Assembly: GCA_029265405.1 (NCBI GenBank)
Contig: JAJUJI010000002.1
Coordinates: forward strand, 124,001-188,000
From: Clostridiales bacterium
Lineage (GTDB): Bacteria > Bacillota > Clostridia > Oscillospirales > Oscillospiraceae
Direction of reading: 5' to 3'
Length of the DNA stretch: 64,000 bases
How positions within the stretch are numbered: the stretch's first letter is position 1; every line of letters starts with the position of its first letter. Below are positions 24,396 to 33,074 of this stretch, piece after piece. The translations under genes and the position numbers were made by a program. The notes under the pieces were generated by a model. That model was not told the DNA's origin and made no database searches. It saw only the letters and a program-made list of their open reading frames with translations.

Positions 24396-24424
24396 TTGAC
24401 TTGCCTTCCTTTTGATATTATACT
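24396..24424 (+). promoter_or_regulatory. Strong sigma-A promoter of the xer-MBOAT operon
   Basis: TTGACT (24396-24401), exactly 17 bp, TATACT (24419-24424), 62 bp before the recombinase ATG. It starts only six bp from the start codon of the divergent M50 gene. Confidence 0.75.
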
Positions 24425-24486: not shown

Positions 24487-25512
24487 ATGGACTACAGATG
24501 CGAGGCTCCGGATATCGTCAAGGAATTTCTTTCTTATCACGAGGTGGTCAAGGGCCACTCAGCAAAAACGGTGGACGAGTATTATCTTGACATACGGGTG
24601 TTTCTCCGTTTCTTGAAGAAAAAGAGAGGGCTTGCGCCGTCCGGACTTCCTTTTGACGAGATACCCGTCGGCGACATAGGCCTTGATTTCCTCGCAAGCG
24701 TAACTAAAACAGACATATACGATTTCATGACCTTTCTCTCAAGGGACAGGGTAAAGCGCACGGGGAACGGCGGCTTCGGCCTGACGGCGGCTTCAAGGGC
24801 TCGAAAGCTCGCTGCCTTGAAATCCCTTTATAAATATCTTACGGTCAAAACGGGAAAGCTCAGCGTCAACCCCCTGGACAATTTTGACCCGCCGAGGCTG
24901 AAGAAGGCTCTGCCAAAATACCTGACGCTGGAGGAAAGCAAGGCCCTGCTGAGCAGAGTCGGCGGCAGGAACGTCGTACGCGACAGGTGCATACTGACGG
25001 TATTTTTAAATTGCGGGCTTCGCATTTCCGAGCTGGTAGGGCTGAACCTCAGCGATATAAAGGCCGATTCGCTGAGGATACTGGGCAAGGGCAATAAGGA
25101 GAGGGTCGTATATTTCAACGACGCGACGGCTGAGGCCATAAACGAGTATTTGAAAATAAGAAAAGAGGCCGGAGCCGGGGAGCCCGCGCTTTTTCTGTCC
25201 GAGCAGAAGCGGCGCATAGCCTCGGCGACAGTGCACAGGCTCGTTAAGCGGCACCTTGGTGAAGCGGGGCTTGACAGCGCCGCCTATTCCGCCCATAAGC
25301 TCCGCCACACGGCCGCCACGCTCCTGCTGAAAAACGGAGTCGATTTGAAGGTATTGCAGCAGCTTTTGGGCCACGAGCACCTGAATACCACCGAAATATA
25401 TACTCATGTCGAAAGCACCGATTTGAAAATAGCCGCCGCGGCCAATCCGCTGGCGCGCTTCAAGCCCGGCTCGGACGACAAAAACTCACCTGTAAAAAAG
25501 GAAAAGCGCTGA
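24487..25512 (+). CDS. Tyrosine recombinase, XerC/XerD family
   Basis: 341 residues: a SAM-like N-terminal domain (about 8-115) and a catalytic domain with Arg179 (CGLRISEL), a Lys in GKGNKERVV, H270-x-x-R273 (HKLRHT), H296 (GHEHLN) and the nucleophile Y305. All catalytic residues are present, so active. It most resembles chromosome-dimer-resolution recombinases rather than phage integrases, and no attachment-site repeat flanks it. GGGAG six bases before the ATG supports the start. It is the first gene of the operon and overlaps the MBOAT gene by one base. The C-terminal Lys-rich tail (KKEKR) is extra. Confidence 0.9.
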   Translation: MDYRCEAPDIVKEFLSYHEVVKGHSAKTVDEYYLDIRVFLRFLKKKRGLAPSGLPFDEIPVGDIGLDFLASVTKTDIYDFMTFLSRDRVKRTGNGGFGLTAASRARKLAALKSLYKYLTVKTGKLSVNPLDNFDPPRLKKALPKYLTLEESKALLSRVGGRNVVRDRCILTVFLNCGLRISELVGLNLSDIKADSLRILGKGNKERVVYFNDATAEAINEYLKIRKEAGAGEPALFLSEQKRRIASATVHRLVKRHLGEAGLDSAAYSAHKLRHTAATLLLKNGVDLKVLQQLLGHEHLNTTEIYTHVESTDLKIAAAANPLARFKPGSDDKNSPVKKEKR

Positions 25513-26909
25513 TGGTTTTCTCCAGTATCCTGTTCATATTCATTTACCTGCCGGCGACGCTGGCAGCGTATTATATTATACCCTCCAAATGGCGCAACGC
25601 TTGGCTCTTTTTTGTAAACCTCGTCTTTTACGGCTGGGGCGAGCCGGTATATATACTGCTGATGGTATTTTCGATAGCCTTCAACTATATATCCGGCCTT
25701 CTTGTTGAAAGGTACAGGCATGCCGAGAAAAAATGCCGGGCGGCGCTGGTTGTCTGCGTCGCCGTAAACCTATCCATGCTGTTTTTTTTCAAATATTATG
25801 ATTTTTTTGCCGCCAATCTTGGAAGGCTGCCCTTCCTTTCATTTATTAAGCCGCTGGGCCTTTCGCTGCCGATAGGCATCTCCTTTTATACCTTCCAGAC
25901 CATGTCCTATCCCATAGACGTATACAGAGGCGATGCGAAGGTCCAAAGAAATTTTATCAATTTCGGCACCTTTGTAGCTCTCTTTCCCCAGCTTATAGCG
26001 GGCCCCATAGTCAGATACAAGGATATAGCCCAGCAGCTTGAGGGGCGCAGGGAGAACGCAGACCAGTTTGCTTCCGGGATTTGCCGCTTTTCAGCGGGTC
26101 TTGCCAAAAAGGTGCTGCTGGCCAACGGCATAGGGGCGTTGTGGGATGTTTTCAAGGCAGCCGAGCCCTCGAGCCTTTCGGCGGCCTCAGCCTGGCTGGG
26201 AGCGATAGCCTTTTCCTTTCAGATTTATTTTGATTTTTCAGGCTACTCGGACATGGCCATAGGACTGGGGCGCATGATGGGTTTCGAGTTCCTGGAAAAC
26301 TTCAACTACCCGTATATATCCAGAAGCGTCACGGAGTTTTGGCGGCGCTGGCATATATCCCTTGGCACCTGGTTCAGGGACTATGTCTATATCCCGCTGG
26401 GAGGAAACCGCCGCGGCTTGAAAAGGCAGTTTCTTAATATTTTCATAGTCTGGGCGCTGACGGGCTTTTGGCACGGAGCAAGCTGGAATTTTTTGCTGTG
26501 GGGCGTTTACTACGCAGCGCTGCTGATTGTCGAAAAAGCCTTCCTGCTGAGAATGCTCGAAAAGGCTCCGGGAGCCGTCGGCCGCGCATATACGCTTTTT
26601 GCCGTAGTTATCGGCTGGGTGCTCTTTTCCGTTGAGGACCTGCCGTCGACCATTGCTTACCTTTCGGCGATGTTCGGCGGAGGCGGCGGACTGCTGTCAT
26701 CGGATTTTCTGTATTATCTCAGGAATTACGGGGCAATGCTGCTTATATTGGCGGCGGCCTCCACTCCCCTGCCGAAGCGGCTGCTTGAAAGGCTGCCCGT
26801 TAAACTGAAGTACTTCGCCGTACCCGCTCTGGCGGCGGTATCCCTCCTGCTCTGCACCGCCTATCTTGTAGACGGCACATACAATCCCTTCCTCTATTTC
26901 CGCTTCTGA
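25512..26909 (+). CDS. MBOAT-family O-acyltransferase (AlgI/DltB-like)
   Basis: 465 residues, about ten membrane helices. Family signatures: FYTFQTMSYPIDVYRG, IAGPIVRY, the FWRRWHISLGTWFRDYVYIPLGG block and the catalytic-His region TGFWHGASWNF. Such proteins pass acyl groups across the membrane onto extracellular polysaccharide or teichoic acid. Start codon shares one base with the recombinase stop (TGATGG), so translation is coupled. The next gene encodes a DHHW protein, the usual extracellular acyl-transfer partner. The acceptor polymer is unknown. Confidence 0.93.
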   Translation: MVFSSILFIFIYLPATLAAYYIIPSKWRNAWLFFVNLVFYGWGEPVYILLMVFSIAFNYISGLLVERYRHAEKKCRAALVVCVAVNLSMLFFFKYYDFFAANLGRLPFLSFIKPLGLSLPIGISFYTFQTMSYPIDVYRGDAKVQRNFINFGTFVALFPQLIAGPIVRYKDIAQQLEGRRENADQFASGICRFSAGLAKKVLLANGIGALWDVFKAAEPSSLSAASAWLGAIAFSFQIYFDFSGYSDMAIGLGRMMGFEFLENFNYPYISRSVTEFWRRWHISLGTWFRDYVYIPLGGNRRGLKRQFLNIFIVWALTGFWHGASWNFLLWGVYYAALLIVEKAFLLRMLEKAPGAVGRAYTLFAVVIGWVLFSVEDLPSTIAYLSAMFGGGGGLLSSDFLYYLRNYGAMLLILAAASTPLPKRLLERLPVKLKYFAVPALAAVSLLLCTAYLVDGTYNPFLYFRF

Positions 26910-26947: not shown

Positions 26948-28072
26948 ATGAACAAAACCGGAACAAAAGCGCTGCTGATTGTTTTTATTTGCTATATCTC
27001 GCTGTTTTCCCTATTGTTTTGGCTAGCCCCGGACAGGGCGTATTCCGAACAGGAAAACAGGTATCTGAAAAAGCTGCCCTCCTTTAATTTCAAGGCCCTC
27101 TTCGACGGAAGCTTTACAAAGGATTTTGAAAGCTATACCGCCGACCAGTTCCCCTTTCGCGACGCGTGGGTAGGTATGAAGGCCCGAACAGAAGCGGCGC
27201 TGGGCAAAACGGAAAACAACGGGGTGTTCCTCTGTTCGGAGGATACGCTCATATCCCGCTTTGCGGAGCCGGACATGGAGCTTGTGGACGAAAATATAAG
27301 CGCCGTGCTCGCCCTGGCCGGGAATACCGAGGCGCGGCTCTGCCTTGCGCTGATTCCTACGGCGGCCGCCGTATGGGATTACAGGCTGCCGAAAAACGCC
27401 GACACCTGCGACCAGAAGGCGCTGATAGACTATATTTACTCGCGCTGCTCCGGCATAGCCACGGCCGACATCTACTCGGCCCTGAGAGCGCATAAGGAGG
27501 AATACGTCTACTACCGGACCGACCACCACTGGACGACTTTGGGCGCCTATTACGGCTATGCTGCTCTTGCAGAGGCTCTGGGGCTTGAGCCGGAGGCTAT
27601 GTCGGCTTTCGAGCCTGAAACCGTCACCGAGAGCTTTTACGGCACAGCCTATTCCTCCTCAGGGGCGTACTGGGTCAGGCCTGACAGCATCCAAGTTTTC
27701 GTGCCCGCCGAGGGCGTGACGGTTACGAATTACCCGAAGGGCAAGGCAGTGCCCGGCGCCGTTTACGACTATGGCTTCCTTGAAAAAAAGGATAAGTACG
27801 CCATGTTTTTCGGCGGAAACACTCCCCGCCTCGTGATAAAAACCGCTTGCGGGCAGGGCGGCAAGGTCCTCCTGCTTCGGGATTCATATGCCGACAGCAT
27901 GGCGCCTTTCCTTTTCGGCAGCTTTTCAGAAATCCATATGCTCGACCTTCGCTACTATAAGTCCAGCGTGACAGATTATATCAGAGAAAACGATATAGAT
28001 ACCGTGATAATATCCTACGGGCTGAGCAATTTTGCCACCGACGCTTCCGTATTCCTGATGGGCATTTCATGA
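26948..28072 (+). CDS. DHHW-motif (AlgX/AlgJ-like) cell-surface protein
   Basis: 374 residues. A single N-terminal membrane anchor (about 8-28) then an extracellular SGNH-hydrolase-like domain: GVFLCSEDTLI near 95, the TDHHWTTLGA motif near 195 and the LLLRDSYADSM segment with the nucleophile Ser near 315. AlgX/AlgJ-type proteins take the acyl group from MBOAT partners and O-acetylate exopolysaccharide. 38 bp after the MBOAT gene. All expected catalytic residues appear present. Confidence 0.9.
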   Translation: MNKTGTKALLIVFICYISLFSLLFWLAPDRAYSEQENRYLKKLPSFNFKALFDGSFTKDFESYTADQFPFRDAWVGMKARTEAALGKTENNGVFLCSEDTLISRFAEPDMELVDENISAVLALAGNTEARLCLALIPTAAAVWDYRLPKNADTCDQKALIDYIYSRCSGIATADIYSALRAHKEEYVYYRTDHHWTTLGAYYGYAALAEALGLEPEAMSAFEPETVTESFYGTAYSSSGAYWVRPDSIQVFVPAEGVTVTNYPKGKAVPGAVYDYGFLEKKDKYAMFFGGNTPRLVIKTACGQGGKVLLLRDSYADSMAPFLFGSFSEIHMLDLRYYKSSVTDYIRENDIDTVIISYGLSNFATDASVFLMGIS

Positions 28073-28089: not shown

Positions 28090-29547
28090 ATGAATATAAC
28101 CAGAGAACAAAAAAGAACGCTGATTATGATGGCTGTTGCGGCGCTCCCGCTGCTGCCCGCGCTGCTTTTCAAAATGCACTGGCTCATAGAGCTTTTACTG
28201 TGCCTGCTTTCGTCGGCGGTATCCTGCCTGGAGCTGATAGCCCCGGCAAAAAAGGCGCTGGCCGAAAAGCGCTTTAAAGACCCGCTGCTTATCATTCTGC
28301 TTGCATGCGCCGCTTCCTTTATATCAGGAGCTTTTTCATCGGCCGCGCTTACGCTTATAGTTTACCGGCTTGCGCTCGCGCTGGTCAGCGGGCGCACGGA
28401 GAGCGTTAGAAAAATGGCGGAAACGCGAATTGAGCTGTCCTCGCTAAAAAAATACGCAGCTCCGCTTGAGGACAAGCCGAGGCTGGATTTTAAGCTCTGT
28501 TCCGCTTTTGACAAGTATCTGCCGCTCTTTTTTCCTTCGCTGGCCGTTTTATACGCCGTGTTGCTTCCCCTGCTGAGCCAGGTGGGCGCGCTTGAAGCAC
28601 TAAGGAGGGCGGCAGCAATTTTAGCAGTATCAGGCGTATTTTCCGTCTTTGCGCCCATTGCTTTTATAGACTACGCCGCGTGCGTCCGCGCCCTGGAATG
28701 CGGCGTTCTGTTCAAGCCGGGCGCGCTGGCAAAGATTGCTAAGGCAAGGCTGCTCCATATCAGCCAGGCCGAGCCGGAGGATATAGGCGGAATTAAGATT
28801 TATGTTTCGGATTCAAACGTCCTCAGCGCCAAATCCGTTCTTTTTCTGGCCGCAACGGCTTTTGCCTATTCCGGCGGCGAGACGGCCCTGAAGCTGGCGG
28901 AGGCTTACGGAAGGCCCATAGACAGGAGCGCTGTCACCGAAGCGCAGGAGCTTGAGGGTCTGGGCGTTGTTGCCAGGATCAGGGGAACCGCCGTTTGCGC
29001 CGGCAGCGCGGTTTTTATGAATCGCGCCGGGCTTCCCGTCCTGCCTTTTAACGAACGCGGAACGGTAATACACATTGGCGTCAACGGCCGCTATGCCGGA
29101 AAGCTTTCATTTGAGGGAGACGATATGCCTTATGGCGAATTCAGTCGCGAAGCGGAAAAGCTTGGGCTTTATGTTTCCACGGACGCTGTGGACATCTCGG
29201 ATAAAAGGTCTGATGATGAGCTTGCGGCCTTTGCCTCCGACGGCGCCTTTCCCGAAGCCTCGATTAAGGAGAACGATGTGAGAGTATCAAGCGGCGGATA
29301 CCGCGAGAATGCGGATATATGCATCGCCTCCGGCGCCCGTGGAGATCTTCTCTCCGCCTTCAGCCTTGCGGGAAGCGCCGAACGGCTGAAGAAGGGCTGC
29401 GCGGCTGTTTTCTGTTCTGTTAAGGCGCTTGCGCTTGCGCTGGCGCTTATCGGGCTGATGCCGCTCTGGGGCGCCGTTGCTGCCGACGCGGCCGCAGCGC
29501 TCCTTGCCTGGGGCTTCTCGCTGCGGGCGCTGGATATAGGAGCCTGA
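28090..29547 (+). CDS. P1B-type ATPase-like membrane protein lacking all catalytic motifs
   Basis: 485 residues, intact frame, GAGGG nine bases before ATG. The order of segments follows a heavy-metal P-type ATPase: helices at 10-50; a KDPLLIILLACAASF-type helix pair (63-100); a helix pair (145-162, 172-196); GVLFKPGALAKIAKA (205-219), which in pumps leads straight into the phosphorylated DKTGT; N-domain-like GLGVVARIRGTAVCAGS (290-306); a P-domain-like section; and a terminal helix pair (444-475). The CPC site is GVF (182-184), DKTGT is absent (HISQAE), TGD is STDA, GDGxND is SDGAFPE (about 384-390), and the actuator domain with TGES is missing. So it cannot be a phosphorylated pump. 17 bp after the DHHW gene, likely co-transcribed. 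Role unknown. Confidence 0.72.
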   Translation: MNITREQKRTLIMMAVAALPLLPALLFKMHWLIELLLCLLSSAVSCLELIAPAKKALAEKRFKDPLLIILLACAASFISGAFSSAALTLIVYRLALALVSGRTESVRKMAETRIELSSLKKYAAPLEDKPRLDFKLCSAFDKYLPLFFPSLAVLYAVLLPLLSQVGALEALRRAAAILAVSGVFSVFAPIAFIDYAACVRALECGVLFKPGALAKIAKARLLHISQAEPEDIGGIKIYVSDSNVLSAKSVLFLAATAFAYSGGETALKLAEAYGRPIDRSAVTEAQELEGLGVVARIRGTAVCAGSAVFMNRAGLPVLPFNERGTVIHIGVNGRYAGKLSFEGDDMPYGEFSREAEKLGLYVSTDAVDISDKRSDDELAAFASDGAFPEASIKENDVRVSSGGYRENADICIASGARGDLLSAFSLAGSAERLKKGCAAVFCSVKALALALALIGLMPLWGAVAADAAAALLAWGFSLRALDIGA

Positions 29548-29563: not shown

Positions 29564-30229
29564 TTATGAGCAAAATATATGCTTTCCTATAGTGACTATT
29601 TCCGGCCTGGACCAGATCCAGCCGCTGGTGGCTGTGGCGGGGTTGAAATAGTATATGGCGCCGCCCGAGGGATCCCAGCCGTTCAGGGCGTCCCGTGCGG
29701 CCCTGTACGCGCTGTCGGCCACCTCCTGGTAAAACTGACCGTCGGTCACGCAGGTGAAGGCTCCGGGCTGGTATATGACGCCCGCCAGGGAATCCGGGAA
29801 GGAAGGATGCTCTATCCTGTTGAGCACCACCGCGCCGACGGCTACCTGGCCGACATAAGGCTCGCCCCTGGCCTCGGCAGATATGAGCCGGGCAAGAAGG
29901 CTTATGTTGTTGCCGTATGAGGTGCCTTCGCCGGCGCTTATCCCGATGGCCTTGAGCGTAGCCGGGCCGCAGATGCCGTCGGCCGTCAGGCCGTTTTTGC
30001 TTTGAAAATATTTAACCGCGGCTGTTGTCTTGCTGCCGTATATGCCGTCCACAGGGCCGGTATAATAGCCCCAGTCGCTGAGCTTCTGCTGTATCTGCCT
30101 CACGACCGAGCCTGTCGAGCCCTGCCTGTAGACGGCGGCCTCGGCTTTTGAGAGGCAGATCAGCGTTATGTTGACCGCAAAAAGTACGGCGACTGAAATC
30201 AGCAGTCTTTTTCTTGCTTCCGAATCCAT
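29564..30229 (-). CDS. sleB: Spore cortex-lytic enzyme SleB
   Basis: 221 residues: N-terminal signal/anchor (about 8-30), peptidoglycan-binding repeat (about 33-95; GSTGSVVRQIQQKLSDWGYY), and a C-terminal Hydrolase_2 domain (about 110-221) with the Glu in ISAEARGEPYVGQVAV and YQPGAFTCV. SleB is a lytic transglycosylase that degrades spore cortex at germination. AAGGAG eight bases before ATG at 30229 sets the start. Its usual partner ypeB is not adjacent. Convergent with the pseudo-ATPase gene, with 16 bp between stops and no clear terminator. Confidence 0.9.
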   Translation of the reverse strand: MDSEARKRLLISVAVLFAVNITLICLSKAEAAVYRQGSTGSVVRQIQQKLSDWGYYTGPVDGIYGSKTTAAVKYFQSKNGLTADGICGPATLKAIGISAGEGTSYGNNISLLARLISAEARGEPYVGQVAVGAVVLNRIEHPSFPDSLAGVIYQPGAFTCVTDGQFYQEVADSAYRAARDALNGWDPSGGAIYYFNPATATSGWIWSRPEIVTIGKHIFCS

Positions 30230-30265
30230 TGCAAAGCTCCTTAATATGCCGGTTCCGCGGAATAA

Positions 30266-30314
30266 AAAGCTCCTTCGCAAATATCCCGCTAAGGATATTG
30301 TACGAAGGAGCTTT
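30266..30314 (-). terminator. Strong intrinsic terminator after thrS
   Basis: Minus strand: AAAGCTCCTTCG / CGAAGGAGCTTT (12 bp) with an inner AATATCC/GGATATT stem, followed by TTATT; begins about 20 bp after the thrS stop. It separates thrS from sleB. Confidence 0.85.
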
Positions 30315-32348: not shown

Positions 32349-33074
32349 TCAGCTTATGTCAAGGATTTTTCCCAGCAAAAGCGTTATTGCGTACAGGATA
32401 GGCTGGTGGACAAGATAGATAATGAAGGCTTTCCGCCCCACGGCGGGCAAAAACCTGGGGTTAAGCTCGTAAAAGCGCTTCGGCAGTACTCCGGCCTTGA
32501 TCTTCTCCCCGGCCCAGGTCCCAAGCAGGAACACAAAAAGCCAAGGGAATATGGGAAAATAGTCCGCCGATTCGAAGCCGGGGTAATATATGCCCAGCGG
32601 CCAGAGCCAGCGGGAATCGGAGCCCGCGGCGTTAGCAAGGTTAACCGCGACGTCAGACGCTATAAGCAAAACAATATAAAGCACGGGGGCCGCCCTGTCC
32701 GGCAGCTTATCGAGCGGCCTCCAGACAAGGCCGTAAAACACCATGCAAAAGCCCAAAAAATGCAGTATGCCAAACAGTATCGGCATATCCATTAGCCAGG
32801 TCACAAGAGTTATCGCCAGGGCCGCGCATAATACCTTAAGGCCCCGCCTTATATTGCTGTGTGAAAAGCGCGACGAAACGCCTGAAAGGAAGATGAACAT
32901 GCCCGCGAAAAAATAGTGGGCTACGTCCAGCACGGGATTGGTAAATATCCACCACGGCGCGCCTAAGAAGGCCGCCAAATCATACAAAAAATGATGCGCC
33001 ACCATCAGCAGGACGCACAGGCCTCTTGCGGCGTCTATGCTCTCTATCCTGCCTCCACCGTAATTGCCCGTCAT
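32349..33074 (-). CDS. DUF1624 (heparan-alpha-glucosaminide N-acetyltransferase-like) membrane protein
   Basis: 241 residues, about seven membrane helices. The opening RIESIDAARGLCVLLMVAHH, with its Asp and two His, is the DUF1624 signature; related proteins acetylate sugars across the membrane. A late SIDAARG-type motif and HQPILYAI near the C terminus agree. It overlaps the ychF stop by 4 bp (ATGA). The substrate is unknown, but it adds to several carbohydrate acylation genes in the window. Confidence 0.85.
   Translation of the reverse strand: MTGNYGGGRIESIDAARGLCVLLMVAHHFLYDLAAFLGAPWWIFTNPVLDVAHYFFAGMFIFLSGVSSRFSHSNIRRGLKVLCAALAITLVTWLMDMPILFGILHFLGFCMVFYGLVWRPLDKLPDRAAPVLYIVLLIASDVAVNLANAAGSDSRWLWPLGIYYPGFESADYFPIFPWLFVFLLGTWAGEKIKAGVLPKRFYELNPRFLPAVGRKAFIIYLVHQPILYAITLLLGKILDIS

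Follow-up and report, generated by a model that had tools for sequence, protein, structure and literature searches.

The protein of 485 aa encoded near the middle of the window (the whole 64,000-nucleotide stretch of DNA analysed here) probably belongs to a vertically inherited bacterial family of pseudo-P-type ATPases, whose metal-pump ancestor has turned into a non-pumping membrane scaffold or regulator. Along the way the actuator domain appears to have been excised on several independent occasions, and one branch appears to have lost its P and N domains too, with a single locus spanning the whole path. The gene is the last in an operon with the following features.

24396-24424 (+): putative sigma-70-like promoter, TTGACT-17-TATACT, upstream of the four-gene operon (consensus scan, 10/12 matches)
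24487-25512 (+): XerC-like tyrosine recombinase, operon gene 1 (Pfam Phage_integrase, E 1.5e-40; synteny)
25512-26909 (+): MBOAT O-acyltransferase, DltB-like (Pfam, E 1.2e-32)
26948-28072 (+): DHHW/AlgX-like SGNH protein (Pfam DHHW, E 8e-41)
28090-29547 (+): pseudo-P1B-type ATPase, 485 aa, last of the four operon genes (BLASTP, 66-sequence alignment, AlphaFold, Foldseek, VIA)

The last frame begins with ATG and runs for 485 codons plus a stop with no internal stop, and a previous reading of the sequence alone had likewise described 485 uninterrupted codons; the opposite strand is stop-rich in frame 1. A Shine-Dalgarno-like GAGGG lies 9 nt 5' of the ATG, and 17 nt separate that ATG from the DHHW stop. 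The XerC-like gene serves as a landmark, since it is common to the loci of the relatives (synteny). On the 3' side of the pseudo-pump gene is a convergent sleB-like gene (29564-30280), named from its own sequence. Rfam gave no match in the surroundings. Farther along, 32349-33074 (-) encodes a small membrane protein with several helices, its family unstated, which is conserved beside ychF and thrS in relatives (55-58% identity).

Descent from a P1B pump and loss of its catalytic parts

The window protein descends from a P1B (Zn/Cd-type) ATPase. BLASTP against canonical pumps of related genomes gave E values of 1.9e-20 (L006) and 3.7e-20 (L007), and 78 of 99 relatives' genomes contained a sequence match to it. 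The relationship to P-type ATPases, first proposed from an alignment by eye, is thus borne out by matches at E ~1e-20 and by a canonical pump at the orthologous locus of a relative. Searches with the protein alone were far less informative: the NCBIfam cadmium ATPase model TIGR01512 matched weakly over the C-terminal helix pair (E 0.0024), neither Pfam nor a PDB sequence search gave a match, and a scan of named genomes using the single protein found no relative. The empty Pfam and PDB searches are what would favor an unrelated membrane protein with a chance likeness to P-type ATPases, a reading with practically no chance of being right, since it is ruled out by the BLASTP matches to canonical pumps and their orthologous locus and is also opposed by sequence intermediates and model matches.

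An AlphaFold model built on the 66-row alignment had a mean pLDDT of 92 and a pTM of 0.85, although canonical pumps are included in that alignment, which favors their fold and means that model and sequence evidence are not independent of each other. Foldseek placed the zinc pump ZntA first (4umw, E 2.2e-15). VIA-align superposed 460/485 residues on CopA (7r0g) with Z 29.1 and an rmsd of 10.1, the domains being hinged. The model matches ZntA and CopA over almost all of its length. Residues 233-342 resembled the N domains 2voy_J and 5lbk_B (CopA, HMA8) with Z 14.0-14.1. The predicted structure therefore contains an eight-helix membrane bundle and an N-domain fold, and its parts lie in the gene as follows.

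28102-28437 (+): helices MA, MB, M1 and M2, residues 5-116 (AlphaFold, pLDDT mostly >90)
28438-28491 (+): 18-residue M2-M3 linker in place of the canonical actuator domain of ~100 aa with TGES (alignments)
28492-28698 (+): helices M3 and M4, residues 135-203, with GVF at the CPC position, 28633-28641 (alignment, model)
28756-28776 (+): HISQAEP at the DKTGT position (66-sequence alignment)
28786-29115 (+): N-domain-like head, residues 233-342, with GLG at 28957-28965 (VIA, alignment, dN/dS)
29116-29325 (+): shortened P-domain remnant, with STDA at 29176-29187 and SDGAFPE at 29236-29256 (alignment, model)
29326-29532 (+): helices M5 and M6, with Lys445 at 29422-29424 and Asp466 at 29485-29487 (alignment, model)

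P-type ATPases are defined by a phosphorylated Asp. In the 66-sequence alignment, the DKTGT column of the window protein reads SQAEP, inside HISQAEP, and the phosphorylated Asp is absent. The same alignment has GVF for CPC (residues 182-184), (S)TD for TGD, SDGAFP for GDGxND and, in M2, ALA for GEL. Where canonical pumps have 99 actuator residues the window protein has 7, and TGES is absent. These replacements agree with those listed in the sequence-only reading (GVF, HISQAE, STDA, SDGAFPE), which was also right that the whole actuator domain is gone. The alignments establish that all catalytic motifs and the actuator domain have been lost from the window protein, which on these residues amounts to a loss of catalysis. 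By the known P-type mechanism, a protein so altered cannot run the E1/E2 pump cycle, because none of its steps works in a protein that has neither actuator nor CPC and is also without the phosphorylated Asp and the motifs of the P domain.

Some features overlooked in that reading have been kept, namely K445, D466 and the GxG of the N domain. The M5 Lys is found in 65 of the 66 aligned sequences, with Arg as the sole exception. The metal-site acid of M6 is Asp in the window protein and Glu in all eight other window-type copies. We take Lys693 and Asp714 of ZntA to be the positional equivalents of K445 and D466. In the ATP site, GLG is kept, Glu has become Phe and His-Pro has become GE; since the Glu and the His-Pro are lost, ATP binding by the window protein is doubtful.

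Graded forms at one locus

Nine genomes of genera g1, g11 and g57 contained window-type copies, 476-490 aa long and devoid of every motif, always 3' of xerC-MBOAT-DHHW wherever the contig shows that stretch. Genus g104 has a 513-aa form, also after DHHW, in which CPC or SPC is still there. Most other relatives (534-578 aa) sit directly behind fba, often beside xerC-DUF6873-radA-cwlD-spoIVA. Forms from genus g127 have no actuator domain and carry CPC and DKTGA or DKSGA. At the other end of the range, genome G053 (L192) encodes a canonical 660-aa pump at the shared locus, between fba and a convergent DHHW-MBOAT-xerC, with TGES, CPC, DKTGT, TGD and GDGIND. The actuator domain is present and the catalytic motifs are altered (e.g., SKPGT, DKEGT, EKDDM, GNGIGN) in forms from g51, g116 and G002. 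Full-length relatives that keep the actuator with altered motifs are encoded at L224 6036-8009 (-), L226 3097-5082 (+), L225 3614-5503 (+) and L193 164-2107 (-). A 629-aa relative behind fba, at L042 9037-10923 (-), lacks the actuator, reads NKTGT for DKTGT and begins with an N-terminal tail that is long and acidic.

Other relatives have lost the P and N domains along with the actuator, and keep CPC, the M5 Lys and the M6 Asp. Two of these (L038 and L039, in G041 and G039, 378-383 aa) are reduced to their CPC-bearing membrane helices, short fragments and an N-terminal tail rich in His and Cys, and the model of the L038 protein has ZntA as its first match. The third (L241, in G110, 383 aa) lies ~3.4 kb from DHHW-MBOAT-xerC.

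L038 9565-10698 (-): membrane-only P1B-derived protein
L039 9735-10883 (-): membrane-only P1B-derived protein
L241 9642-10790 (-): membrane-only P1B-derived protein

Finally, in two g24 genomes (L235 2684-2743, L236 3841-4298) DHHW adjoins fba and the pump gene between them is missing. One syntenic locus thus holds a series that starts with a canonical pump, passes through motif-lost forms with an actuator, then forms without one and forms reduced to the membrane part, and ends in absence. Pairwise alignments place the excision of the actuator domain between M2 and M3; it is clean in G053 versus G294 (47% identity over 568 aligned residues). Within genus g3, G002 (648 aa) has the actuator domain and G145 (584 aa) lacks it at the same operon place. 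DHHW is normally paired with MBOAT, yet in G145 (L229 6223-8513) it stands immediately after xerC and MBOAT is absent from that gap.

Judged by match span, an actuator-less form occurs in at least ~46 of 400 sampled genomes of the bacterial family. Orthologous genes are intact across ~18 of its genera, as counted from the genus codes of the loci found. An order-level search, with three candidates scored per genome, yielded outside the family only matches starting near M3, like those of canonical pumps.

The 40 locus proteins formed one clade against 12 canonical outgroup pumps (SH-aLRT 100). On that tree, the actuator-less rows required five changes, and well-supported branches force three of these. 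An AU test rejected the actuator-less rows as a single clade (p 1e-12). A single deletion of the actuator domain as the origin of these proteins is ruled out by the tree and the AU test. It is fairly safe to conclude from the sequences that the domain was lost several times; this applies to the plurality, while the number is uncertain, given that the locus tree is a quick tree with long branches. Holding all pseudo forms as one clade gave an AU p of 0.036, and on these alignments it is neither shown nor clearly rejected that the pseudo state arose just once.

Selection, proposed function and alternatives

Pairwise dN/dS (Nei-Gojobori with Jukes-Cantor) was 0.05-0.30 over pairs of relatives with dS from 0.1 up to 2.4, comprising 0.16-0.30 in window-type relatives and 0.05-0.13 in others. 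The aligned lengths of the compared pairs were equal or nearly so, and no frames were broken. When three window-type pairs were divided by part, the N-domain remnant had the lowest ratio (0.14), and MA-M2 (0.29) and the linker the highest (0.29-0.31). In the same pairs, MBOAT, DHHW and xerC gave 0.07-0.17, and the dN/dS of the window-type clade is above that of the neighboring MBOAT and DHHW genes. The nearest relatives of the window's gene are at 30-33% identity, with no close one in the collection, and we infer selection on the window's own gene from these relatives. Their purifying selection argues against decay, and so against the window gene being a decaying pseudogene. The earlier suggestion that selection keeps the frame holds in the relatives, where frames are intact and ratios stay within 0.05-0.30.

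A non-pumping role, also anticipated by the sequence-only reading, is very likely given the lost motifs, the lost actuator and the intact, selected frame. We lean toward a bacterial pseudo-P-type ATPase that acts as a putative non-catalytic membrane scaffold or regulator via its N-domain-like head. By scaffold or regulator we mean a presumed binding role, suggested because the head is both retained and most constrained. Synteny and the tree place a Zn/Cd/Co-type (P1B-2) pump in ancestors of the bacterial family, at a conserved locus fba - pump - [DHHW-MBOAT] - xerC - radA. In the lineage of the window the entire actuator domain disappeared, as did the CPC site, the phosphorylated Asp and the motifs for Mg and the hinge. 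What remains is an eight-helix bundle with its M5 Lys and M6 acid, plus the N-domain-like head; in relatives these parts are under purifying selection. This predicted membrane-anchored pseudoenzyme may bind a putative partner through the head and the helix bundle.

Elsewhere, the genome of the window encodes a canonical P1B pump (G000 contig C3, 866 aa, all motifs), which is a candidate for that partner. Most relatives checked also have such a pump elsewhere, and the presence of one in the window's genome would make the loss of pumping affordable. At L187 (G486:C9), a canonical P1B pump is seemingly split into frames of 151 and 522 aa, perhaps by a frameshift or a sequencing error. Several observations count against our reading. 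Different lineages keep different pieces (CPC without the P and N domains, or the head without CPC), and such lineage-specific retention is odd for one shared scaffold function. The pseudoenzyme reading is also weakened by the missing gene at seemingly the same site in two g24 species (L235, L236), by a window-type dN/dS above that of MBOAT and DHHW, by the distance of the window gene's nearest relatives and by the canonical ATPases in the alignment behind the model.

That same absence between DHHW and fba is expected if the gene is instead a slowly decaying pump, its function long lost and its frame held by residual constraint (e.g., the avoidance of a toxic misfolded membrane protein) on its way out. 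The stepwise loss of motifs and domains and the excess of dN/dS in window-type pairs over MBOAT/DHHW would fit as well. The sequence-only reading had reasoned that relatives keeping DKTGT would make this copy just such a pump; relatives do keep DKTGT, but purifying selection argues against the decay that was to follow. Slow decay is unlikely, if still worth keeping in mind: genes are intact in ~18 genera down to ~30% identity, dN/dS stays within 0.05-0.30 even where dS reaches 2.4, all nine window-type copies are free of frameshifts, and the head is more tightly constrained than the helices.

It is also conceivable, at rather long odds, that the protein forms an ATP-free passive ion or proton pathway, or a membrane metal buffer, using the M5 Lys and M6 acid. 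The Lys is invariant and the acid is D or E in every window-type copy, and the membrane-only L038 and L039 proteins keep CPC and His/Cys-rich tails. Their equivalents in ZntA, Lys693 and Asp714, link the binding of metal to ATPase activity, going by the title of Okkeri and Haltia 2006 (cited in PMC6305203). However, a Lys-acid pair can be purely structural, and the window copy has no known metal site left because CPC, the M2 Glu (GEL to ALA) and the His-rich tail are lost from it.

A role in cell-surface acylation, as partner of the MBOAT-DHHW system in the form of a scaffold or an acyl-donor passage, had been proposed from the gene's position. It is the last operon gene, 17 nt past DHHW, and the co-directional order is repeated in genera g1, g11, g57, g104 and g3. 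A scan of named genomes with an MBOAT alignment returned 80 named Firmicutes loci, nearly all of which have the MBOAT-DHHW pair without a pseudo-pump gene after it; the gene follows DHHW in only one, L071 (RUG14053). Within the bacterial family, L230-L236, L238 and L242 likewise have MBOAT-DHHW alone, and most fba-xerC loci have a pseudo-pump relative without MBOAT-DHHW beside it. The DHHW-MBOAT-xerC neighborhood was already present beside the fully canonical pump of G053 (L192), so the adjacency is inherited synteny. L229 has DHHW and the pseudo-pump gene with no MBOAT between xerC and DHHW. De novo clustering of neighbors gave housekeeping genes only (fba, xerC, DUF6873, radA, cwlD, spoIVA) and no recurring partner. 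Because MBOAT-DHHW and the pseudo-pump are so often found apart, the link is weak and the acylation role very improbable.

Comparison with known systems

The closest known systems are the P1B-2 ATPases (ZntA/CadA; ZntA solved as 4umv and 4umw). The window protein has the same descent, the MA-MB-M1-M6 topology and the N-domain fold, it has the M5 Lys and M6 acid in common with them, and its orthologous chromosomal position holds such a pump in G053. Unlike them, it is without CPC, DKTGT, TGD, GDGxND, TGES and the actuator, and its P domain is shortened. In a survey of UniProt, DKTGT was present in 99.77% of P-type ATPases, and the 22 of 9,634 sequences without it carried single point changes (PMC3896382). 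Those sequences have lost the phosphorylation motif, as has the window protein, but they represent point changes and not a family losing all motifs and a domain. The apicomplexan guanylyl cyclase alpha has an appended P4-ATPase domain that keeps the catalytic Asp, a residue that seems to be essential there (PMC7858053). It places a P-type ATPase fold within a signaling protein and differs in the cyclase fusion, the P4 type and the retained Asp.

Human TMEM94 is a P-type-ATPase-like membrane protein without TGES that showed no ATPase activity in a structural study (PMC12134183). Another paper calls it an ER Mg ATPase (PMC13322241), so its status is disputed. Like the window protein, it is P-type-ATPase-like, membrane-bound and reported inactive; unlike it, TMEM94 is a eukaryotic ER protein with ten helices and an actuator-like domain still in place, and the two are not close kin. 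Among open-licence papers, we found no description of pseudo-P-type ATPases or of any bacterial family that lacks the actuator domain, and a term search of a review from 2023, devoted to open questions about P-type ATPases, returned no pseudo family (PMC10654040).

In the family of this gut bacterium, a transport enzyme seems to have been repeatedly turned into a non-pumping membrane protein. If this is true, the syntenic series would show a transport enzyme losing its engine yet staying useful, and would provide a bacterial counterpart to the disputed human TMEM94. The natural intermediates would make the order of loss and the remaining function directly testable.
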